From the NCBI RefSeq assembly GCF_017848315.1, contig NZ_JAFKEC010000002.1:1-64000 (forward strand): DNA of 64,000 bases. Direction: 5' to 3'. The notes beneath the pieces are model-generated. The model was given only the letters and a program-made list of their open reading frames with translations, had not been told where the DNA came from and searched no databases. This DNA is from Pseudomonas palmensis. Its GTDB lineage: Bacteria > Pseudomonadota > Gammaproteobacteria > Pseudomonadales > Pseudomonadaceae. Position 1 is the first letter of the stretch. Each line of letters begins with the position of its first letter. The position numbers and the translations under genes are program-made. This document shows, piece after piece, positions 22,300 through 35,288 of this stretch.

Positions 22300-23203
22300 A
22301 CCGTGTCTCCTTGCGTCGTTTGAGGGTTTCACTGGGCAACTCCTTGAACAGCGCCTGATAACTGCTGGAAAACCGCCCCAGGTGCCAGAACGACCAGCGC
22401 ATTGCCACTTCCGCCACGGTGTGGCCGCGCGCGGTCAGCAGCTCGCGGTGCGCGCCATTGAGGCGGCGCAGGCGCAGCCAGTGGCTGGGCGTGATGCCGG
22501 TGTACGCCTTGAACGCATGCTGCAACTGACGCACCGAACTGCCGGCCACCTGCGCCAGTTGCAGCAGGTTCAATGACTCCTCCGGCGAATCCGCCGCCCA
22601 TTCGCTGACCTTGCGCATGATGGTGCGCTCCTCGGTGCGCCGCCACAGCTCGCCGCGGTCCAGGCACACCGAGGCGGTGTCGAGAATGTACAGACAATCG
22701 TCCAGCAACTGCCTGGCCAGCACCTGCTGGCACGGCGCGTCCTCGCTCTGCGAGAGGCGCGTCAGGGTACTGCTCAGCCAGCCGCTGAACAAGGCATTGC
22801 GCTGGGAATTGAGCGGTGCCATGAACAGACCTTCGAGCGCCGCAACGTCCACGCCGTGCTCACGCACGAACGCAGGGCCGAACACGACGGCCACTTCCTG
22901 GTAGTTCTCGGGGGTGATCCAGATGTTGCGGCTTTCGCCATTGAGCACGTACAGGCTGTTGTCACTGCGGTCGAAGCAGAACGACAGCGAACCGCCGGGG
23001 GCGCTGAAGCTCTGCTCCACCCGGGTGTTCATGCGCTCTTCGTACACCTCCACGCCCTGCAGGTCGAGGCAGCGCACCATCCCGGCAAAGTGCCCGGGTG
23101 ACATCTGCTGGTAGTGCTGTGCCCAGCCTGGCGTGGCGCGTACCTGTTCGACCACATCGGCACTGGTGAAGGCCTGTACCCGCAAGGGCGACGGGGTTGT
23201 CAT
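22289..23203 (-). CDS. AraC-family regulator of the amine catabolism cluster
   Basis: A 304-residue AraC-type regulator. The N-terminal sensor contains VRATPGWAQHYQQMSPGHFAG, as in EutR-like/amine regulators. The C-terminal DNA-binding domain occupies about residues 205-300 (LLQLAQVAGSSVRQLQHAFK, VAEVAMRWSFWHLGRFSSSY). The ATG at 23201-23203 is chosen because an upstream in-frame ATG would run into the divergent ligase promoter. It is divergent from the glutamine-synthetase-like gene at 23377 and so is the likely activator of the ligase / binding protein / oxidase operon. The inducer (putrescine, ethanolamine or another amine) is inferred only. Confidence 0.87.
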   Translation of the reverse strand: MTTPSPLRVQAFTSADVVEQVRATPGWAQHYQQMSPGHFAGMVRCLDLQGVEVYEERMNTRVEQSFSAPGGSLSFCFDRSDNSLYVLNGESRNIWITPENYQEVAVVFGPAFVREHGVDVAALEGLFMAPLNSQRNALFSGWLSSTLTRLSQSEDAPCQQVLARQLLDDCLYILDTASVCLDRGELWRRTEERTIMRKVSEWAADSPEESLNLLQLAQVAGSSVRQLQHAFKAYTGITPSHWLRLRRLNGAHRELLTARGHTVAEVAMRWSFWHLGRFSSSYQALFKELPSETLKRRKETRYGF

Positions 23204-23376
23204 GAGAACCTCTGAATGCACTGCTTTGGTGCATTTTCTTCTGCTCAAAGTGGATAGATGCAGCCGCAGCTGCGGCACCAAGATAGACCTCAACGCGGCG
23301 CAGGGGAAGCCAGGCCTTGCCCGCCCGCGCCACACACACCCTTGCGCATGCCCTGCATCACGACAACGAGGTTCTC

Positions 23377-24735
23377 ATGAATACCCCCTTCGATCAGCTG
23401 TCCACCTGGCTGAAAGAACACAAGATCACTGAAGTGGAATGCGTGGTCACCGACCTGACCGGTATCGCCCGCGGCAAGATCGCCCCCACCAACAAGTTCC
23501 TGCATGAGCGAGGCATGCGCCTGCCGGAAAGTGTGCTGCTGCAGACCGTGACCGGCGACTTCGTCGAGGACGAGATCTACTACGACCTGCTCGACCCGGC
23601 CGACATCGACATGCTCTGCCGCCCCGACTCGACGGCCATCTACCCGGTACCCTGGGCGCTGGAGCCCACCGCGATCGTGATCCACGACACCTTCGACAAG
23701 CAGGGCAACCCCATCGAGCTGTCGCCGCGCAACGTGCTCAAGAAAGTCCTCAAGCTGTACGCCGACAAGGGCTGGCAACCGATCGTGGCACCGGAGATGG
23801 AGTTCTACCTGACCCAGCGCTGCGAAGACCCGGACCTGCCGTTGCAGGCGCCACTGGGCCGTTCGGGCCGCGCCGAAAGTGGCCGCCAGTCGTTCTCCAT
23901 CGATGCCGCCAACGAGTTCGACCCGCTGTTCGAGGACGTCTACGACTGGTGCGAGGCCCAGGGCCTGGACCTGGACACGCTGATTCACGAAGACGGCCCG
24001 GCGCAGATGGAAATCAACTTCCGCCACGGCGACGCCCTGGACCTGGCCGACCAGATCACCGTGTTCAAACGCACCATGCGCGAGGCCGCACTCAAGCACA
24101 ACGTCACCGCCACCTTCATGGCCAAGCCGGTGGGCGACGAGCCGGGCAGCGCCATGCACCTGCACCAGAGCGTGGTCGACAGCGCCACCGGCAAGCCGAT
24201 CTTCGTCAATGACGACGGCAGCATGAGCGAGCTGTTCCTGCAGCACATCGGCGGCCTGCAGAAGTACATCCCCAAGGTGTTGCCGATGTTCGCGCCCAAC
24301 GTCAACTCGTTCCGCCGCTTTCTGCCCGACACCTCGGCACCGGTGAACGTGGAGTGGGGCGAAGAGAACCGCACCGTGGGCCTGCGCGTGCCCACCTCCA
24401 GCCCCGAGTCGATGCGCGTTGAGAACCGCCTGCCCGGCGCCGATGCCAACCCGTACCTGGCGATTGCCGCCAGCCTGCTGTGCGGCTACCTGGGCATGGT
24501 CGAGGGCATCGCGCCCAGCGCCCCGGTGCAGGGGCGTGCGTATGAGCGGCGCAACCTGCGCCTGCCGATCACCATCGAGGACGCGCTGGCGCACATGGAA
24601 GACTGCCCGACCATCGAACGCTACCTGGGCAGCAAGTTCGTGCGTGGCTACGTGGCGGTCAAGCGCGCCGAGCACGAGAACTTCAAGCGCGTGATCAGTT
24701 CGTGGGAGCGCGAGTTCCTGCTGCTGAGCGTGTGA
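23377..24735 (+). CDS. Glutamine-synthetase-family gamma-glutamyl-amine ligase
   Basis: A 452-residue enzyme of the glutamine synthetase fold, most like PuuA/PauA ligases, which join glutamate to a polyamine or monoamine using ATP. The beta-grasp part starts WLKEHKITEVECVVTDLTGIARGK. Catalytic segments are EMEFYL, GPAQMEINF, the ATP/metal segment KPVGDEPGSAMHLHQS, and the arginine segment NPYLAIAASLLCG. No adenylylation-loop tyrosine signature is apparent. GAGG precedes the ATG at 23377. The downstream periplasmic binding protein and FAD oxidase complete a typical glutamylated-polyamine pathway. Which amine is used is not determinable here. Confidence 0.88.
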   Translation: MNTPFDQLSTWLKEHKITEVECVVTDLTGIARGKIAPTNKFLHERGMRLPESVLLQTVTGDFVEDEIYYDLLDPADIDMLCRPDSTAIYPVPWALEPTAIVIHDTFDKQGNPIELSPRNVLKKVLKLYADKGWQPIVAPEMEFYLTQRCEDPDLPLQAPLGRSGRAESGRQSFSIDAANEFDPLFEDVYDWCEAQGLDLDTLIHEDGPAQMEINFRHGDALDLADQITVFKRTMREAALKHNVTATFMAKPVGDEPGSAMHLHQSVVDSATGKPIFVNDDGSMSELFLQHIGGLQKYIPKVLPMFAPNVNSFRRFLPDTSAPVNVEWGEENRTVGLRVPTSSPESMRVENRLPGADANPYLAIAASLLCGYLGMVEGIAPSAPVQGRAYERRNLRLPITIEDALAHMEDCPTIERYLGSKFVRGYVAVKRAEHENFKRVISSWEREFLLLSV

Positions 24736-27173
<2,438 letters not shown>

Positions 27174-27237
27174 GGCGGCGCAAATCGCCGGTTGCAGCTA
27201 CTGTGCATCTATCAGAGGCTCACAAGAAGGCTCGGTC

Positions 27238-27858
27238 ATGCGCTCATTCGCTGCAGTTTGCTGTCTTGCCGTGTGGTTGATCGCTGTTCTGCCGGGCTCT
27301 GCCGCCGCGGCGCCGCCTGCGGCGGTAGCCGAAGACAAGGCCCAGGTGCTGGAGCAGAAGGCTGCCGAACAGGGGCGCGAGGCCAGCGTACCCAGCGACC
27401 AGGCCATCACCCGCAGCGAAGTGCAGGCGGTCGACCCCAAGGGCGAGGCCGCGCTGGATGACGCGATCACCTGCCTGGCGCGCACCCTCTACTGGGAGGC
27501 CAAGGGCGGTGAGGCGGCGGACATGCAGGGTGTGGCCAGCGTGGTGATGAACCGGCTGGGGCACGAAGGGTTTCCGGGCACCGTGTGCGAGGTGGTCAAG
27601 CAGGGCATCAAGGAGCGTACATGCCAGTTCTCGTGGTGGTGCGACGGGCGCTCGGACGATGTGGAAGAGCCGGTGCAGTACACCGTGGCCAAGGAAATCG
27701 CGCGCAAGGCGCTGAATCAGCAACTGACCGACAGCACCGATGGCGCGATGTACTTTCATGACCGCCATGTGCATCCCGCGTGGGCCAGGACGTACTTGAA
27801 GACCGCCGAAACTCCCAGGTTCCTGTTCTACAAGCCGCGTGCGGGGGAGGCGCGGTGA
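27238..27858 (+). CDS. SleB/CwlJ-type cell-wall hydrolase
   Basis: A 206-residue exported protein. The signal peptide is about residues 1-24 (cleavage near AAAAPP), then a charged linker, and a Hydrolase_2 (SleB/CwlJ) domain from about residue 80: CLARTLYWEAKGGEAADMQG, with the catalytic glutamate in YWEAKG, VASVVMNRLGHEGFPGTVC, and CQFSWWCDG. In this family such domains cleave peptidoglycan. It is 150 bases upstream of the cofilin-like gene on the same strand; nothing shows that they are functionally linked. Confidence 0.88.
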   Translation: MRSFAAVCCLAVWLIAVLPGSAAAAPPAAVAEDKAQVLEQKAAEQGREASVPSDQAITRSEVQAVDPKGEAALDDAITCLARTLYWEAKGGEAADMQGVASVVMNRLGHEGFPGTVCEVVKQGIKERTCQFSWWCDGRSDDVEEPVQYTVAKEIARKALNQQLTDSTDGAMYFHDRHVHPAWARTYLKTAETPRFLFYKPRAGEAR

Positions 27859-28008
27859 TTGGCAGGTAAGCAGGGCGCAGCCTGTTTTCAGCAGTATGTA
27901 ACCTGATAACTTTGCCAGTGTCGGTTGATTAGGCGCTGTTGTATGGTGATGCCTGACTTCGCGGTTAGTTGGCGTGGTACGCGATTGAATCGGAAGAGGA
28001 TGATGGCC

Positions 28009-28437
28009 ATGTCAAGCACTGGTGTGTTAGTGACGGATGAGTGTCGAAATGCTTACAATTCGCTCAAATTAAGTAAAGCGTTTAGGTATATTGTTTTCAA
28101 GATCTCAGATGATTACAAGGAGGTTGTTGTTGAATCAACAGGCGATAGGTCCGCAACCTACGAGGATTTTCTGAGCGCGCTGACCCCGAATGAAGTGCGA
28201 TATGCTGTCGTCGACTTTGAGTTTGAAACCGTTGAGGGGAGACGAAATGCAATTTTGTTTACTCTATACGCAGATGACTCGGCCCCCATAAGAAAAAGGA
28301 TGGACTATGCCTCCAGTAAGGATGCACTTAGACGTGCTTTAACTGGTATTGCTTTAGACATTCAGGCATCTGAAAAGAAAGATCTTGAATACGACTTGGT
28401 TCTGGCTAAGTTTAGTAATGGCCTTGCAATTCGGTAA
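28009..28437 (+). CDS. ADF/cofilin-homology protein (eukaryotic-type actin-binding)
   Basis: A 142-residue protein that reads as a complete ADF/cofilin. It opens MSSTGVLVTDECRNAYNSLK (Thr4 stands where cofilins carry the regulatory serine), then YIVFKISDD, YAVVDFEFET, and the long actin-binding helix region PIRKRMDYASSKDALRRAL (residues 93-111), with R95, R97, K104, D105, R108 and R109 at the known G-actin contact positions. The C-terminal helix YDLVLAKFSN keeps K134 but lacks the Glu/Arg pair usual for F-actin binding. Length equals yeast cofilin within a residue. AGAGG lies 9 bases before the ATG. GC is about 43% (184/429) with AGA, AGG, ATA and TTA codons, unlike its neighbours. There is no signal peptide. 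Family recognition is by eye; the role in a bacterium is unknown. Confidence 0.9.
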   Translation: MSSTGVLVTDECRNAYNSLKLSKAFRYIVFKISDDYKEVVVESTGDRSATYEDFLSALTPNEVRYAVVDFEFETVEGRRNAILFTLYADDSAPIRKRMDYASSKDALRRALTGIALDIQASEKKDLEYDLVLAKFSNGLAIR

Positions 28438-28451
28438 ATATCCATTCGGGC

Positions 28452-29285
28452 TTACTCTGTACAGCCTGGATAAAGAGTGCATTCACGACCGTCCATCTCG
28501 AAAGTCGAAAATGTCGGGTCACGATAACTGCAGGAGGCTTCGCCAACCCACTTCCATTGTGAAGCGCAGGGCTTCATGCCATCGCCGACCGGTGACCAGT
28601 TCTCGGGGTAAAGCGGCCACTCCTTGTCGATGAGGCGGTACACGAAGCGCAGGTCGGTCTTGTTCAGCTGGGTGTAGGCGACGTTGGCGACCGGGCCGGG
28701 GTGCCTGGAGGTCCGCTCCAGCGGTTGCCACTGGCTGTCGGCGGCGAGGCAGTCGATGTCCCTGGCCAGCACGTGGCGCTCATGCCCGGGCACGATGTGG
28801 TAGGCCGTGCCGCACAGGCGGCGCACAACCAGCTCGGGGTCTGCGTCGCGCACCGGCCCAGTGCCGTCGGGCAGTGCCGGCAATACCTTGACCCCCGCCA
28901 GGCTGTACCGCCCGCTGGGGGACTTGATGCTCACTGTGATGTTGTCCAGTTGCTGGGTGCAACTGCCGATGGTGTAGGTCAGCGGGATCCTGAACGTGAC
29001 GGTGCGCGCGTCGGGGTGCGCATCGGCCTGGTCGGTGCGGTACTGGTTGGGGCGCGAGCGCATGCCGCCGGTGGCGGGGGAGGCCACGGTGCAGCGGTAC
29101 GGGTCGAGCGGGGCGTAGCTGGCGTTGTAGGTGACGCCGTGGTTGGGCGGGAGTTCGGCGATCAGCGTGGTGCTGCTCAAGCCGTAGTGGCTGGTGGCGC
29201 CCACGACGCTTTCCTTGGCGACGAAACCGATCAGGCTGCAGGCGGGCAGCAGGGGCAGGGCCAGTAGCAGGTACAGCGGTTTCAT
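28452..29285 (-). CDS. Hypothetical lipoprotein
   Basis: A 277-residue protein with a lipoprotein signal: MKPLYLLLALPLLPACSLIG, lipobox LPAC with the lipid-carrying Cys at residue 16, so it is probably anchored in the outer membrane. The body is rich in short beta-like segments with several cysteines (CTVASP, CTQQLDN, VRRLCGT, CLAADS, PCASQW, CSYRD, CTLYPGC), suggesting disulfides. I do not recognise a family. It ends 14 bases from the convergent cofilin-like gene. An earlier in-frame ATG would add about 34 residues rich in Pro and His and is not favoured. Confidence 0.72.
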   Translation of the reverse strand: MKPLYLLLALPLLPACSLIGFVAKESVVGATSHYGLSSTTLIAELPPNHGVTYNASYAPLDPYRCTVASPATGGMRSRPNQYRTDQADAHPDARTVTFRIPLTYTIGSCTQQLDNITVSIKSPSGRYSLAGVKVLPALPDGTGPVRDADPELVVRRLCGTAYHIVPGHERHVLARDIDCLAADSQWQPLERTSRHPGPVANVAYTQLNKTDLRFVYRLIDKEWPLYPENWSPVGDGMKPCASQWKWVGEASCSYRDPTFSTFEMDGRECTLYPGCTE

Positions 29286-29363
29286 CCGGGGCCATCCGTG
29301 GGCAAGTGCGGGAGGGGATGGTGCGCGATTGTGCGGGTGTGGGCAAGGGGCTGCACCGACCCA

Positions 29364-29428
29364 ATCGCGGGTCAGGCCCGCTCCCACAGGATCACCGCAG
29401 TCATGTGGGAGCGGGCTTGACCCGCGAT
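29364..29428. repeat. REP element pair, type A
   Basis: Arms ATCGCGGGTCAGGCCCGCTC (from 29364) and their complement ending at 29428 lie between the lipoprotein start and the MocR 3' end. Confidence 0.85.
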
Positions 29429-29454
29429 GGGGCGTTGACCGTCATGCCAGCCCC

Positions 29455-30867
29455 TCAGAACGACCGCACGATCCGCCCCAGCGTCTCCATCGCCTGCTCC
29501 GACTGCTCGGTCCAGGGGCTGCCGTAATTGAGGCGGATGCAGTTGCGAAACCGGCGCGTCGGCGAAAAGATCGGCCCCGGCGCAATGCTGATGCCCTGGG
29601 CCAATGCCATCTGGAACAGCTTCAGCGAGTCCATCTGCTCCGGCAGCTCCAGCCACAGGAAGTACCCGCCGCTGGGGTGGCTGACCCGCGTCTGCGCCGG
29701 GAAGTGCCGGGCAATCGCCGCCAGCATGGCGTTCTGCTGCTCTTCCAGCGCATAGCGCAGGCGCCGCAGGTGGCGGTCGTAGCCACCGTGCTGCAGGTAG
29801 TCGGCAATCGCCGCCTGCGCCGGCATCGATGCACACAGCGAGGTCATCAGCTTGAGCCGCTCGATCTTCTGCGCATAGCGCCCGGCCGCCACCCAGCCGA
29901 TCCGGTAGCCCGGCGCCAGGCTCTTGGAGAACGAGCCGCAATGCATCACCAGCCCTTCGGTGTCGAATGCCTTGGCCGGCTTGGGCGCCTGCTGCGCGTA
30001 GTACAGCTCGGCATACACGTCGTCTTCGATCAGCGGCACCTGGTGCACGCTCAGCAGCTCGACCAGCTGCTTCTTCTTGTCTTCCGGCATGCTCGCGCCC
30101 ACCGGGTTCTGGAAGTTGGTCATGCACCACACGGCCTTGACCGGATGCCGCTCCAGCGTCTGCGCCAGCACCCCCAGGTCGATGCCTTCGCGCGGGTGCA
30201 CCGGAATCTCCACCGCCTTGAGCTTGAGCCGCTCCAGAATCTGCAGGCAGGCATAGAACGCCGGTGCCTCGATGGCCACCAGGTCACCCGGCTCGGTTAC
30301 CGCCTGCAGGCACAGGTTCAACGCCTCCAGCGCACCGTTGGTGATCAGCAGTTCTTCCATCGGCAGCATCAAGCCGCCGACCATGTAGCGCAGGGCGATC
30401 TGGCGGCGCAGTTGCGGGTTGCCCGGCGACAGGTCGGTGACCACCATGCGCGGGTCCATCTCGCGGCTGGCGCTGGCCAGCGAGCGCGCCAGGCGCGGCA
30501 GCGGGAACAGGTTGGGGCTGGGGAACGCCGAACCGAAGGCCACCGTCTGCGGGTCCTTGATCGAGTCGAGGATCGAGAACACCAGCTCGCTGACGTCCAC
30601 CTCGGTCGATTCGCTGGCCTGCTCGATGATCTGCGGCTCGTTGAACTGGCGCGGGGCGTGGGTGTTGACGAAGTAGCCCGAGCGCGGCCGGGCCCGGATC
30701 AGCCCGCGACGCTCCAGCAGGTAGTAGGCCTGGAACACCGTGGACGGGCTGACCCCGTGGGTCTGGCTGGCGTAACGCACCGACGGCACGCGCTGGCCGG
30801 GGCCGAGTACCCCGGAGCGAATCAGTTCGGCAATGTCGTCGGCGAATTTCTCGTAGCGTTTCATCAT
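29455..30867 (-). CDS. MocR-type regulator (GntR helix-turn-helix plus aminotransferase domain)
   Basis: A 470-residue fusion. An N-terminal GntR winged helix spans about residues 1-70 (QRVPSVRYASQTHGVSPSTV, then YYLLERRGLIRARPRSGYFV). A fold-type I aminotransferase domain follows, with the PLP lysine in SFSKSLAPGYRIGW near residue 313. MocR proteins use PLP as a co-factor to sense metabolites and usually do not catalyse transamination. No obvious amino-acid pathway gene is adjacent; the ccoG gene upstream is on the same strand 36 bases away. Target unknown. Confidence 0.9.
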   Translation of the reverse strand: MMKRYEKFADDIAELIRSGVLGPGQRVPSVRYASQTHGVSPSTVFQAYYLLERRGLIRARPRSGYFVNTHAPRQFNEPQIIEQASESTEVDVSELVFSILDSIKDPQTVAFGSAFPSPNLFPLPRLARSLASASREMDPRMVVTDLSPGNPQLRRQIALRYMVGGLMLPMEELLITNGALEALNLCLQAVTEPGDLVAIEAPAFYACLQILERLKLKAVEIPVHPREGIDLGVLAQTLERHPVKAVWCMTNFQNPVGASMPEDKKKQLVELLSVHQVPLIEDDVYAELYYAQQAPKPAKAFDTEGLVMHCGSFSKSLAPGYRIGWVAAGRYAQKIERLKLMTSLCASMPAQAAIADYLQHGGYDRHLRRLRYALEEQQNAMLAAIARHFPAQTRVSHPSGGYFLWLELPEQMDSLKLFQMALAQGISIAPGPIFSPTRRFRNCIRLNYGSPWTEQSEQAMETLGRIVRSF

Positions 30868-30903
30868 GGCTCTGGGCGGTCTGACTCAGCGGAGTGTATG
30901 TGA

Positions 30904-32316
30904 TCAGCGGTTCAAAGGCGCGACAAAACGGCTGCGCGCAAGGCTGCGCACGTTCGGCTGGTCGGTGTCGATGAGTTCGAAGCTGATCTCCTGGGAGCTG
31001 CTGGGCGCACGGTCGGCCAGCATCGCCACCGAGACCGGTATATCGCTCATCTCGCTGGCCGCCAGGGTGAACTCGGTCTTGCCATGCAGTTCGAAGCCTT
31101 CGGCGTCCACCAGGCGCAGGCGGTAGGTCTGCGGCTGCTGGGTCTTGTTGATGACCTTGAGGGTGTAGATGTTCTCGATCTGCCCCAGGGCGTTCTCGCG
31201 GAACAGGCCGCGGTCCTTGATCACGTCCATCGACACCATCGGGCGTTGCTGCAGGGCGATCACCAGGGCGCCGATCATCACCACCAGCACGGTCACGTAG
31301 CCCAGCAGGCGCGGACGCATCCACTGGGTGGTGCCGCCTTGCAGGGTGTGCTCGGACTTGTAGCCGATCAGCCCGCGTGGGTAGCTCATCTTGTCCATGA
31401 TGCTGTCGCAGGCGTCGATGCAGGCGGCGCAGCCGATGCACTCCATCTGCAGGCCGTCGCGGATGTCGATGCCGGTGGGGCATACCTGCACGCACATGTG
31501 GCAGTCGATGCAGTCGCCCAGGCCCTGGGCCTTGTGGTTGGCGTCCTTCTTGCGCGGCCCGCGCGACTCGCCGCGCTGCGGGTCATAGGCGATGGTGAGG
31601 GTGTCCCTGTCGAACATCACGCTCTGGAACCGGGCATACGGGCACATGTGCATGCACACCGCCTCGCGCAGCCAGCCTGCGTTGATGTAGGTGGCACCGG
31701 TGAAGAACAGGATCCAGAACAGGCTGACGCCACCCAGCTGCAGGGTGAACAGCTCCTGGGTCAGTGGCCGGATGGGGGTGAAGTAGCCGACGAAGGTCAG
31801 TGCGGTCAGCAGGCTGACGCCCAGCCACAGGGTGTGCTTGGCTGCGCGGCGCGCCAGCTTGTTGGGGCCCCAGGGCGCCGCATCGAGCTTGATGCGCTGG
31901 TTGCGTTCGCCCTCGGTGACCTTTTCGCACCACATGAACACCCAGGTCCAGGTGCTTTGCGGGCAGGTGTAGCCGCACCAGACGCGCCCGGCGAACACGG
32001 TGATGGCGAACAGGCCGAAGGCGCAGATGATCAGCAGCGCCGACAGCAGGATGAAGTCCTGCGGCCAGAAGGTGGCGCCGAAGATGTGGAACTTGCTGTC
32101 GGCCAGGTCCCAGAGGACCGCCTGGCGCCCGTCCCAGTTCAACCAGACGGTGCCGAAAAACAGCAGAAACAGAAAACCCGCGCCACCCAGGCGCAGGTTT
32201 CGGAAAAAGCCGGTGAAGCTACGGGTGTGGATGTGTCTGTCGCTGCTGGCGGCCTTCTTCTTGAACGTGGAGGGCTCGGCAATTTCAACGATCTGGACGG
32301 GAATTCGTTCGCTCAT
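30904..32316 (-). CDS. ccoG: Cytochrome c oxidase accessory protein CcoG
   Basis: A 470-residue polyferredoxin membrane protein of the CcoG/RdxA/FixG family, needed for copper handling in cbb3 oxidase assembly. Several membrane helices occupy the first 200 residues (YTCPQSTWTWVFMW lies in this part). Two 4Fe-4S ligand clusters follow near residues 260-305: CIDCHMCVQVCPTG and CIGCAACIDAC. A C-terminal Ig-like domain (KVINKTQQPQTYRLRLVDAE) completes the family layout. The ccoNOPQ and ccoHIS genes expected beside it are not in the window. Confidence 0.95.
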   Translation of the reverse strand: MSERIPVQIVEIAEPSTFKKKAASSDRHIHTRSFTGFFRNLRLGGAGFLFLLFFGTVWLNWDGRQAVLWDLADSKFHIFGATFWPQDFILLSALLIICAFGLFAITVFAGRVWCGYTCPQSTWTWVFMWCEKVTEGERNQRIKLDAAPWGPNKLARRAAKHTLWLGVSLLTALTFVGYFTPIRPLTQELFTLQLGGVSLFWILFFTGATYINAGWLREAVCMHMCPYARFQSVMFDRDTLTIAYDPQRGESRGPRKKDANHKAQGLGDCIDCHMCVQVCPTGIDIRDGLQMECIGCAACIDACDSIMDKMSYPRGLIGYKSEHTLQGGTTQWMRPRLLGYVTVLVVMIGALVIALQQRPMVSMDVIKDRGLFRENALGQIENIYTLKVINKTQQPQTYRLRLVDAEGFELHGKTEFTLAASEMSDIPVSVAMLADRAPSSSQEISFELIDTDQPNVRSLARSRFVAPLNR

Positions 32317-32437
32317 GGTTCGTCGCTCATCAGGCCTCGATCAGGCCAGAGCACTATGGCGTCCCATCTGTTTGCATAACAGGTGCAGATATCTGGATAA
32401 AAACCGTATCAGATTATCGCTTGAAACCCTGCAGCCC

Positions 32438-32677
32438 TTATATGATCGAGCCCTCCTCGGAGGTCTTCAAATGCCTGCGACTATCCACCGCACCTGCCAC
32501 GGTGAGCGCGTCAGCCTCTGCCTCGGTGATCGGCACCCGTTGCCCGGCCAGGGTCGCGATCGACATGCGCAGGTCGGCATCGGTGATGATCTGCACCTCT
32601 GCCGCTTCACCTTCGATGTTAAAGTCGTCGGCTATCAGGGTGCAGCGCTTGGTGGTTTCGTTGATTTCAATGGGCAT
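32438..32677 (-). CDS. Small conserved Pseudomonas protein (DUF3203-like)
   Basis: A 79-residue soluble protein, MPIEINETTKRCTLIADDFN, with a central VQIITDADLRMSIATLAGQ and the ending KTSEEGSII. It resembles the DUF3203 family, small proteins restricted mainly to Pseudomonas and without known function. No signal peptide or membrane helix is visible. Confidence 0.7.
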   Translation of the reverse strand: MPIEINETTKRCTLIADDFNIEGEAAEVQIITDADLRMSIATLAGQRVPITEAEADALTVAGAVDSRRHLKTSEEGSII

Positions 32678-32816
32678 GGCGGTGTCCTCGAACGGGGGGC
32701 TTACAGCTGTGACCCCGTTGCCGGCCGGGTTGCTGAGCGTGGCCGATCAGCGGTCGACAGCACTCGCGCGCCAGGCTGTTGTCCATCCAGTATCCCCTTG
32801 CTGATGGACGCTGCTC

Positions 32817-33335
32817 ATGGACGCCTGGTGGCACCAAGTCTGGTCGACACTGATTGCCGAATTCGCCGATATCACCGATGCCAAGCAACTGACGCAGGTG
32901 ACGGTGCGCCTGCTGATGGCTGCGCTGCTGGGGGCGGTGCTGGGCTTCGAGCGCGAGCTCAAGGGCAAGGCGGCGGGAGTGCGCACGCACATGCTGGTGG
33001 CCATCGGTGCGGCGCTGTTCGTGCTGGTGCCGCGCATGGCCGGGGCGGACGACGCAGCGTTGAGTCGGGTGGTGCAGGGGATCGTCGCCGGCATCGGCTT
33101 TCTGGGGGCGGGCACCATACTCAAGGGCAAGGAGGACGATGCGGGTCATGTGAAGGGCCTGACCACTGCTGCGGGCCTGTGGATGACCGCCGCCATCGGC
33201 GTGGCCGCAGGCATGGGGCGCGAAGCCACTGCGCTGGTGAGCACGGTGCTGGCGTTGCTGGTGCTGGGGGTGATGCCGTGGGTGGTCGACCGCCTGGAGA
33301 AGCGCAAGCCAGAGGATGACCAGCAGAACGAGTAG
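32817..33335 (+). CDS. MgtC/SapB-family membrane protein
   Basis: A 172-residue protein with four or more membrane helices. The MgtC family signature is clear: RLLMAALLGAVLGFERELKG, AGVRTHMLVAIGAALFVLV, GIVAGIGFLGAGTILK and GLTTAAGLWMTAAIGVAAGMG. Family members modulate growth in low magnesium and, in pathogens, inhibit the F-ATP synthase; they are not magnesium importers. It lacks the long C-terminal domain of MgtC proper, so it is the short SapB-like form. An intrinsic terminator follows at 33349. Confidence 0.9.
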   Translation: MDAWWHQVWSTLIAEFADITDAKQLTQVTVRLLMAALLGAVLGFERELKGKAAGVRTHMLVAIGAALFVLVPRMAGADDAALSRVVQGIVAGIGFLGAGTILKGKEDDAGHVKGLTTAAGLWMTAAIGVAAGMGREATALVSTVLALLVLGVMPWVVDRLEKRKPEDDQQNE

Positions 33336-33348
33336 GGCAGCAAGCACT

Positions 33349-33377
33349 GAGGGGAGCCTGGGCTCCCCTCAAATTTT
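33349..33377 (+). terminator. Intrinsic terminator of the mgtC-like gene
   Basis: GAGGGGAGCC (33349-33358) pairs with GGCTCCCCTC (33361-33370), followed by AAATTTT, 14 bases after the stop. It is a classical rho-independent terminator. Confidence 0.8.
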
Positions 33378-33885
33378 GTTGCGTGTGCTCTTTTTATTAT
33401 TGGAGGGTGGTCTATTGTTGTTTTTGGCGACCCTTGCCTCTTGTTGCGTTGCGATCCCCATCCGGGATCAAGAGCAAACGTATTTTTTTGAGCGCTGATC
33501 GACCTTTATCATTGCTGATCCAACCGAGACGGGCGCTACCTTGGGGTAGTTTTATTGTTCTCTGTCAGGTCGCGGGGCACGCCCCCGAAAAGCCATCCAC
33601 TTCAAAAAAATCTGTTAGCTGCGCCTCTGCCGTGTTGTTCTTGTTATGTCAGAGCCGGTACGTCTTATTTTTATTGGGTTGTCGCATTTTTTATTGTTGT
33701 TGTACGAAAGATATAGCAGGTGCCGTGCCAACTTTTTAAAACCCAATAAAATCAATGGTTTGCTGGTTTGATGGAAAAATCGCCACGGGAAATTGTGCTG
33801 ATTTGTTTCCGTGTTACCCGGATTTTCCCTGTCGGGTGTGGGGGCGGTAACACTCACCCCCCATTGGCCCTGTTGCTGCGCACCG
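33378..33885. other. AT-rich gene-free stretch
   Basis: About 500 bases of clearly lower GC than the surroundings, with T-runs and short inverted repeats (ATTGGGTT near 33675 with AACCCAAT near 33740; CTACC...GGTAG with a T-run near 33536). Two open frames of about 110 codons on opposite strands show no protein-like composition or good ribosome sites, so no gene is called. It could be a remnant of transferred DNA or a long untranslated region. Confidence 0.6.
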
Positions 33886-34785
33886 TTACCGGGCAGCGCG
33901 TGCCCTGGCCACACGCGAACCGCTGGCGCGGCCCAGCACGGCACTGATGCGCTGGCCGGCGTCGATCAGCTTGTCCAGGTCGATGCCGGTCTCGATGCCC
34001 AGGCCCTGCAGCAGGTACACCAGGTCTTCACTGGCCACGTTGCCACTGGCGCCCTTGGCATACGGGCAGCCGCCCAGGCCGGCGACCGAACTGTCGAACA
34101 CGTTGATTCCCTCCAGCAGGCTGGCGTACACGTTGGCCAGCGCCTGGCCGTAGGTATCGTGGAAGTGCCCGGCCAGCTCGGCACGCGGCACCTGCCCGCC
34201 GACCACTTCGAACAGGCGGCGGGTGGCGCCCGGGGTGCCGGTGCCGATGGTGTCGCCCAGCGACACCTCATAGCAGCCCATGTCGCGCAGCTCGCGGGCG
34301 ATGGGGGCGACCTGCTCGGCATCTACCTGGCCTTCATAGGGGCAGCCCAGCACGCACGAGATATAGCCGCGTACCTTCACCCCGTGTTCGCGCGCCGCCT
34401 GCATGATGGGCGCGAAGCGCTGCAGGCTTTCGCTGATCGAGCAGTTGATGTTGCGCTGCGAAAACGCCTCGGACGCGGCGGCGAACACGGCCACCTCCTT
34501 GACGCCTGCGGCCAGTGCGTCTTCGAAACCGCGCAGGTTGGGGGCCAGCGCCGCATAGGTGATGCCGGGCTGCTGGCGGATGCTGGCGAACACGTCGGCC
34601 GAACCGGCCATCTGCGGTACCCACTTGGGCGAGACGAAGCTGCCCACCTCGATATAGGACACGCCGGCGTCGGTCAGGTCATCCACCAGGCGGACCTTGT
34701 CCGCCACGCTGATGGGTTGGGCTTCGTTCTGCAGGCCGTCGCGGGGGCCGACTTCGACCAGACGCACATGGGTAGGCAATGACAT
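33886..34785 (-). CDS. mvaB: Hydroxymethylglutaryl-CoA lyase
   Basis: A 299-residue HMGL-like TIM-barrel enzyme that splits HMG-CoA into acetoacetate and acetyl-CoA, the last step of leucine/isovalerate breakdown. Motifs seen are VEVGPRDGLQNE near the N-terminus (Arg/Asp metal and substrate site), YEVSLGDTIGTGTPG, GHFHDTYGQALANV (metal histidines) and the signature loop AGLGGCPYAKGASGNVASED with the catalytic Cys. The ATG at 34783-34785 starts MSLPTHVRLVEVG; an upstream in-frame start would overlap the MerR gene. It is paired with a LiuR-like regulator but no other liu genes are present. Confidence 0.95.
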   Translation of the reverse strand: MSLPTHVRLVEVGPRDGLQNEAQPISVADKVRLVDDLTDAGVSYIEVGSFVSPKWVPQMAGSADVFASIRQQPGITYAALAPNLRGFEDALAAGVKEVAVFAAASEAFSQRNINCSISESLQRFAPIMQAAREHGVKVRGYISCVLGCPYEGQVDAEQVAPIARELRDMGCYEVSLGDTIGTGTPGATRRLFEVVGGQVPRAELAGHFHDTYGQALANVYASLLEGINVFDSSVAGLGGCPYAKGASGNVASEDLVYLLQGLGIETGIDLDKLIDAGQRISAVLGRASGSRVARARAAR

Positions 34786-34805
34786 GGCTAGGGTTCCTGT
34801 GGGCC

Positions 34806-35207
34806 TCAATGGCCGTTTTTCTGATTGTTCAGGGTGGTGGCCAGCGCCTGCTGGCAGCGCTCCTCGGCGGTGTCGAGTTCCAGCTGCATCTGCTGGATGT
34901 CGAGCAGTTGCTGTTCGAGCTGGGCGCGGCGCTCGGCGATCTTCGCCAGCATGCTGTGCAGCTGTTTCTGATTGCCGCTGGTGGGGTCGTAGAGTTCGAT
35001 CAGCTCGCGGCACTCGGCCAGCGAGAAACCGATGCGCTTGCCGCGCAGGATGAGCTTGAGGCTGACCTTGTCGCGGGCCGAATACACACGCTCCAGGCCA
35101 CGACGTTCGGGGCTGAGCAAGCCCTGCTCCTCATAGAAGCGGATGGCCCGGGTGGTGATGTCGAGTTCGCGGGAAAGGTCGGAGATGCTGTAGGTCTGGC
35201 TGCTCAT
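34806..35207 (-). CDS. MerR-family regulator, LiuR-like
   Basis: A 133-residue MerR regulator. The N-terminal MSSQTYSISDLSRELDITTR and RAIRFYEEQGLLSPERRGLE form the winged helix typical of LiuR regulators of branched-chain and acyclic terpene catabolism. A coiled coil (AKIAERRAQLEQQLLDIQ) forms the dimer arm, and no conserved metal-binding cysteine loop is apparent. The ATG at 35205-35207 is preferred over an upstream ATG because it begins the domain. It lies 20 bases from the lyase gene; the two probably form one unit. Confidence 0.88.
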   Translation of the reverse strand: MSSQTYSISDLSRELDITTRAIRFYEEQGLLSPERRGLERVYSARDKVSLKLILRGKRIGFSLAECRELIELYDPTSGNQKQLHSMLAKIAERRAQLEQQLLDIQQMQLELDTAEERCQQALATTLNNQKNGH

Positions 35208-35288
35208 TGCATGGCTCGGGGAAGGGGGCATGCGGCTAAGCTACTGGCTGGTTGACGTATACGTCAAGCAGGCATTCGGGGATGGCTG

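Follow-up and report, generated by a model that had tools for sequence, protein, structure and literature searches.

A eukaryotic-type ADF/cofilin gene in a Pseudomonas genome and the inverted pattern of sequence constraint in its Pseudomonas family

What role could a cofilin play without its partner, in a bacterium that lacks a eukaryote-type actin? This question is raised by an open reading frame of Pseudomonas palmensis (genome of 5.9 Mb, estimated completeness 100%) located in the 64,000-nucleotide stretch of DNA that we analysed (hereafter the window: positions 1-64000 of a 229,647-bp contig). According to a report on Microcystis aeruginosa PCC 7806 (PMC3254629), eukaryote-to-bacterium gene transfers have seldom been documented, and in that cyanobacterium the actin ActM and the profilin PfnM were acquired together and form an enclosure. 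The two cases are alike in that genes of an actin system moved from a eukaryote to a bacterium, but Microcystis received an actin together with its binding protein, whereas the window's genome has a lone protein of the actin-binding type without a eukaryote-type actin. For a cofilin in Pseudomonas, no paper was found among the matches listed when titles and abstract starts of the open-licence full-text literature were searched. Seven relatives and an inverted pattern of constraint, both described below, make the question testable, and its answer would be either that the bacterium acts on eukaryotic actin with a protein taken from eukaryotes themselves or that the fold of a cofilin now serves another purpose.

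The gene and its putative ribosome-binding site are located as follows.

28009..28437, + strand: ADF/cofilin gene, 142 aa, ATG start; PF00241 match, AlphaFold2 model, sole PF00241 match of its own genome
27992..27999, + strand: Shine-Dalgarno-like GGAAGAGG, read from the sequence, 9 nt upstream of the ATG at 28009

An earlier note on this DNA had proposed that the first of these features encodes a full-length ADF/cofilin of eukaryotic type in a Pseudomonas-type genome, and had named an absent ADF-H match or a predicted structure without the cofilin fold as outcomes that would speak against it; both were checked and neither occurred. The uninterrupted 142-residue translation matched the Pfam profile PF00241 (Cofilin_ADF) with 114.5 bits (E 3.2e-33, cut-off 22.4), with residues 12-134 aligned to profile positions 1-125 of 125, and ADF-H was its sole Pfam domain. 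An AlphaFold2 model (pLDDT 88.4, pTM 0.84, built on a 13-row alignment) was then used for a structure search, in which the predicted fold matched that of Acanthamoeba actophorin (7sog_A) with a TM of 0.90 and an rmsd of 1.1. Actophorin 7sog was also the best of the solved relatives by sequence (138 bits), followed by the fission and budding yeast cofilins; by class, fungal cofilins and actophorin gave 109-138 bits and other ADF/cofilins 42-99, as against at most 23.9 for coactosin and at most 18.4 for twinfilin (both absent from the trees described below), so that the window protein is closer to cofilins. Its identity is 50% to actophorin and 52% to the cofilin of Rhodotorula toruloides. Judged from sequence, the reading frame is securely a member of the ADF/cofilin family by descent, and the earlier proposal stands. 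A chance reading frame was ruled out by the PF00241 match, while two other database matches were taken as chance: a weak PADLOC match to a defence system (E 0.0094 over 54 residues) and an NCBIfam match to FixL (18.1 bits against a cut-off of 850).

The spacing of GGAAGAGG suits the ATG at 28009, with a small uncertainty on the start coming from alternative ATGs at 28000 and 28003. Since one relative (P0008) has a threonine at the position of the ATG at 28009, the true start may be further upstream in some copies. The frame upstream of the start (27943-28008) is open, and a similar in-frame leader is found in P0005 and P0008. Sigma-70-like promoter sites near the gene did not exceed the level of shuffled sequence. 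The composition of the gene (GC 0.43, GC3 0.41, CAI 0.19) differs from that of 11 other genes of the window (GC 0.63-0.71, GC3 0.82-0.91, CAI 0.57-0.74, these same 11 genes being the CAI reference set).

The surroundings of the gene were then compared with the matching locus of another genome of the genus sample, G076:C363 (L078), which lacks the gene.

27860..28458, no strand: cofilin-bearing segment, ~599 bp, 45% GC, lacking in G076:C363, where the corresponding position has 16 bp; ends placed to ~10 bp
27238..27858, + strand: left neighbour, a cell-wall hydrolase (PF07486 Hydrolase_2, E 8.5e-21), also found beside the empty site in L078
28452..29285, - strand: right neighbour, a lipoprotein-like orphan and probable immunity gene, whose family occurs in T6SS loci with VgrG/DUF4123 on one side and a Lipase_3 protein on the other
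29455..30867, - strand: GntR/aminotransferase regulator (MpaR-like; PF00155 and PF00392), start of the syntenic block

BLASTN blocks adjoin the segment on its left (27154-27859 corresponding to L078:2132-2840, 80%) and on its right (28459-29350 corresponding to L078:2857-3748, 72%), and 29446-35253 is 89% identical to L078. The hydrolase, the lipoprotein and the regulator thus follow in the same order in G076:C363 without the cofilin segment, and in that genome, which is 93% complete, the empty site is intact; a PF00241 match was found within the genus sample in the window's genome alone. Because the segment has a foreign composition, we infer that it was gained here rather than lost in G076, and hence that the direction of the event was insertion. 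Rightwards from the lipoprotein frame, the MpaR-like regulator is followed by CcoG and MgtC, and this gene order is common to the fetched relatives from ~29450 on; in the plasmid collection, the best match to the flank was an MpaR-CcoG pair of P. aeruginosa (80% identity over 46% of the query). A short palindromic REP-like repeat (29347-29433) borders the syntenic block, with copies on four other contigs and in relatives. A second block of 4.8 kb (~22348-27153), carrying genes for a glutamine synthetase, a solute-binding protein and, by eye, an oxidoreductase, is also absent from G076, and these two differences mark the site as variable. The 149 bp upstream of the gene were found in none of the 397 other genomes of the genus sample. 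A mobile cassette was considered and set aside: the repeats of at least 10 nt present in 27820-28500 do not flank the ends of the segment, which leaves room for shorter target duplications.

The lipoprotein next to the gene drew attention to the type VI secretion system (T6SS). Its family had matches in 131 of the 398 genus genomes (the source genome included), often in tandem, and 14 of its loci were fetched, mostly the best-scoring among the matches. In 11 of these 14, the lipoprotein lies between a VgrG-DUF4123 pair and a lipase with all four genes present, the other three comprising one locus with the lipase alone, one with VgrG alone and that of G076 with neither. Pfam searches on seven proteins from three loci confirmed VgrG-type domains (1/1), DUF4123 (2/2) and Lipase_3 (3/3), and gave no match for the lipoprotein itself; the lipoprotein-like frame of the window likewise has no Pfam match. 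Such a layout is that of a T6SS lipase with its immunity lipoproteins, comparable to the TseL/Tle type. The source genome has a T6SS sheath gene (PF05943) and no Lipase_3 match, which makes the copy in the window an orphan, probably of an immunity-like kind. Since G076 has this gene at the same place but no cofilin beside it, the function of the cofilin cannot be read directly from its neighbour. That the cofilin itself might be a T6SS effector was considered because of this neighbour and not adopted: the adjoining immunity-type gene pairs with a lipase family and occurs in G076 without the cofilin, and Pfam searches of nine neighbours revealed no VgrG, PAAR or DUF4123.

The earlier note had considered a cofilin in a pseudomonad very unexpected. 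It is rare indeed, since neither PF00241 nor the window protein found a match in the 397 other genus genomes, nor in 298 other genomes of the phylum and 397 other genomes of the family (the three samples overlap), but it is not unique. Besides its own entry, the protein database contained seven relatives at 77-91% identity. Two of these, encoded on contigs that measure 5.85 and 1.25 Mb, are filed under Pseudomonas by NCBI, P0004 (unclassified Pseudomonas, 82%) and P0007 (P. putida, 80%), with the automatically assigned name 'actin depolymerization factor/cofilin-like domain-containing protein'; for the five others, we infer a Pseudomonas host. Six of the seven are full length, P0009 being a fragment of 107 aa, and these six and the window protein are 67-98% identical to one another. 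A peptide-pattern scan of GTDB r220 contigs, a method that can miss relatives, detected none. Carriage by phages or plasmids was rejected: no relative was found in phages or by pattern scan in IMG/VR, and in plasmids just two distant Streptomyces proteins matched the window protein.

Phylogenetic trees were used to look for a donor. Six Pseudomonas rows formed one clade in the full tree (100/99) and in a reduced tree (100/100), from which eight of the 59 rows had been dropped (two Streptomyces, Filipodium, Tisochrysis, Tiarina, mmetsp209, Pneumocystis and Phakopsora). This clade grouped with fungi at 100/99 in the reduced tree, whose bootstrap was not fully settled, and more weakly, at 87/82, in the full tree, where the long branches of Filipodium and Tisochrysis stand beside the Pseudomonas clade (94/91). 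The 29 rows counted as fungi include three without an organism name (P0010, P0012 and P0108), the last of which is also among the five red-yeast rows. Approximately unbiased (AU) tests on the reduced tree rejected neither a grouping with red yeasts (0.241), nor a fungal clade without Pseudomonas (0.327), nor a grouping with Acanthamoeba (0.0975); when the PDB entry 5ivu was added, its grouping with Pseudomonas was not rejected either (p_AU 0.323). BLAST bits to the window protein were similarly close, with 142 for actophorin and 131-140 for red yeasts. Since Acanthamoeba is not rejected and the nearest fungi are indistinguishable, the donor can be called fungus-like, probably, at most; an amoeba is disfavoured yet compatible (p_AU 0.0975).

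By a PF00022 search, the source genome contains no eukaryote-type actin gene, in agreement with the earlier remark that bacteria lack true actin. The sole PF00022 match was a protein that appears MreB-like by eye. The positions counted here as G-actin and F-actin contacts are those of studies on yeast cofilin.

28291..28350, + strand: actin-binding helix, codons 95-114 (R95, R97, K104, D105, R108, R109), from the residue table; helix at residues 94-110 in the predicted model

In an alignment with yeast cofilin, all six G-actin contact residues (R95, R97, K104, D105, R108 and R109) were present. Of the F-actin site (yeast R80, K82, E134, R135 and R138), R79 and K134 are kept while A81, A133 and N137 are replacements, so that the site is incomplete. 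Each residue assigned by the earlier note was correct in this alignment (T4, R79, A81, R95, R97, K104, D105, R108, R109, A133, K134 and N137), including the threonine in place of the regulatory serine, and its statement that the G-actin contacts are kept agrees with the window protein. Its description of a partly kept F-actin site holds for the window copy but not as a trait of the whole family. Among the seven full-length Pseudomonas proteins (that of the window included), the basic class at 95, 97, 104 and 108 and R79 are kept in 7/7 and D105 in six (Glu in the remaining one), whereas R109 and K134 are each found in 4/7, with Val or Gly at 109 and Thr at 134 in 3/7. K81 and an acid (Asp) at 133 each occur in 3/7, showing that the loss of the F-actin site in the window copy is not uniform across the family. 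P0004 and P0007, members of the same family, differ from the window protein in that both kept K81 and lost R109. Compared with actophorin and fungal cofilins, the window protein is thus alike in its full-length ADF-H domain, predicted fold and G-actin contacts, but it differs in its bacterial host without a eukaryote-type actin match, in Thr4, Ala81, Ala133 and Asn137, and in the constraint on its family.

This constraint was assessed on the same seven full-length Pseudomonas proteins, a set that contains one pair at 98% identity, and compared with 1568 overlapping groups of seven eukaryotic-type sequences of similar divergence.

28105..28188, + strand: codons 33-60, the least-differing stretch among the seven full-length Pseudomonas proteins; mean pairwise difference 0.060, as against 0.346 in matched eukaryotic-type groups

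The ratio of variation in the helix (95-114) to that in residues 6-60 was 1.97 in Pseudomonas, as against a mean of 0.33 and a maximum of 0.66 in the 1568 groups, which overlap, so that 0/1568 is not a probability. The constraint that eukaryotic-type cofilins place on their actin-binding helix is therefore not found in the Pseudomonas family (1.97 vs 0.66 maximum). With residues grouped by chemistry, the ratio was 0.91 (mean 0.20, maximum 0.58 in the groups), a drop which indicates that many helix changes preserve the residue class. Five proteins, with P0005 and P0008 left out, gave 3.28, or 1.69 when grouped by chemistry, and a coarser measure (residues 91-120 over 6-60) gave 2.75, where 2145 groups averaged 0.50 and did not exceed 0.95. 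The difference in the loop at 88-94 was 0.490 in Pseudomonas and 0.191 in eukaryotic-type groups, and that in the helix 0.212 and 0.100. Columns kept in at least 90% of 50 eukaryotic-type sequences vary in Pseudomonas in 11/31 cases, as against 45/103 for the others (Fisher p 0.53), and the result was similar for columns kept in at least 80% (14/40 vs 42/94, p 0.34); by region, 15/56 columns vary in residues 4-60 and 29/48 in 91-138. Constraint is thus inverted in the Pseudomonas family relative to eukaryotic-type cofilins, which is a new observation. The fragment P0009 is identical to P0007 over residues 1-60 (60/60) and to P0003 over 61-106 (46/46), which may reflect recombination among Pseudomonas cofilin alleles, or else a chimeric contig, and recombination may contribute to the inverted constraint.

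This much was observed directly: a PF00241 match, a predicted cofilin fold, a matching site without the segment in a close relative, a foreign composition, a set of close relatives and the retention of basic contact residues. The explanation that we prefer, tentatively and at somewhat less than an even chance, is that of a domesticated cofilin which is predicted, from sequence and model, to bind monomeric actin of eukaryotes living nearby, and in which residues 33-60 would meet a need of the bacterium. The gene would have been acquired from a fungus-like eukaryote as a segment, at a site that is empty in a close relative, and would then likely have been kept by selection. The long helix (94-110) is predicted to dock into the cleft between actin subdomains 1 and 3 through R95, R97, K104, D105 and R108/R109, and the weakened filament site (A81, A133, N137) is predicted to make the protein a poor severer, so that it could act as a monomer sequesterer on the actin of eukaryotic neighbours. 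Such actin would be met only after exit from the bacterium, putatively by lysis, in vesicles or through a T6SS, for which the genome has the sheath gene, while the invariant residues 33-60 may serve the bacterial side, for example in export recognition or in contact with a bacterial partner. The kept basic residues of the helix argue for an actin target, and the shifted constraint for a bacterial one, in addition to actin or in its place. Since both the F-actin site and the helix constraint depart from those of eukaryotic-type cofilins, we do not claim that it is a working, severing cofilin.

Several results count against this explanation: the helix is variable, eukaryote-conserved columns are unprotected, R109 and K134 are each replaced in 3/7 proteins, inspection of the window protein by eye revealed no secretion signal, no promoter rises above chance, codon fit is poor and the gene is rare. 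No VgrG, PAAR or DUF4123 lies among the nine neighbours, the fungal link is weaker in the full tree and an Acanthamoeba donor is not rejected. A stronger version, which we regard as possible but doubtful, would make of the Pseudomonas-owned family a weapon or mimic that binds actin monomers and is carried by a bacterium without actin. Its invariant residues 33-60 would work for the bacterium (in export or with a bacterial partner), and the side facing actin would be diversifying. If true, no earlier case is known to us in which a molecular mimic of a bacterium is a genuine cofilin.

Another explanation, which is possible although we lean against it, is that the cofilin fold was kept but retuned to a bacterial target (MreB, another filament, or a partner on the 33-60 face), actin binding being a fading remnant. 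The inverted constraint fits this well, with the near-invariance of 33-60 and the loosened helix and loop, as do the unprotected eukaryote-conserved columns, the lack of a secretion signal by eye, the lack of an effector cluster among the nine neighbours and the presence of an MreB-like gene in the genome. However, the basic charges at 95, 97, 104 and 108 and R79, kept in all seven proteins, would be unneeded if the actin function had been lost, and the pattern may be due in part to recombination, as the two-part identity of P0009 suggests. Of the roles that the earlier note had listed, an action on host actin still stands and a retuned protein has gained from the inverted constraint, while a gene in transit was weakened by the finding of a divergent, intact family.

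This last possibility, in which a recently transferred gene is a passenger without function in the bacterium, appears unlikely. It would explain the foreign composition and low codon fit, the rarity of the gene, the promoter sites no better than chance and the isolation of the segment at a variable site, but a passenger would not be expected to have seven relatives, six of them full length and, with the window protein, 67-98% identical, nor to vary as unevenly as it does between residues 4-60 and 91-138. This counter-evidence calls for caution, as protein databases are biased towards intact copies, and uneven variation could also arise when copies exchange sequence.

It is far less probable still that the gene descends from an old bacterial ADF-H lineage and groups with the proteins of this family that Streptomyces plasmids encode rather than with eukaryotic cofilins. 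Such proteins do exist in bacteria: by tblastn, six of 72,556 plasmid records, all Streptomyces plasmids, carry mutually related cofilin-like proteins, and the two that were tested (L033:11998-12402 and L032:11998-12402) match PF00241. Yet these two are 26-29% identical to the window protein, are separated by a branch of 2.8 from all eukaryotic and Pseudomonas rows in the full tree, and have both replaced five of the six G-actin residues (yeast R96, K98, K105 and D106 by E, G/M, Y and A/V, and R110 by N, with R109 kept).

Contamination or misassembly, which might be suspected when a draft genome contains a eukaryotic-type gene with an atypical composition, was rejected, as the gene lies inside the 229,647-bp contig with a right flank syntenic with relatives, has an uninterrupted frame behind a bacterial ribosome site, and has relatives at 80-82% identity on megabase-sized NCBI Pseudomonas contigs. 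A similar case is suspected for the PDB entry 5ivu, 'Streptomyces griseoflavus cofilin', for which no paper was found in the open-licence full-text literature. This solved structure is likewise a cofilin attributed to a bacterium and was the second-best fold match to the AlphaFold2 model, but it is 44% identical to the window protein in the structural alignment and shares 70% identity with the cofilin of Atractiella, a fungus, so that it may represent contamination of its source genome or another transfer.
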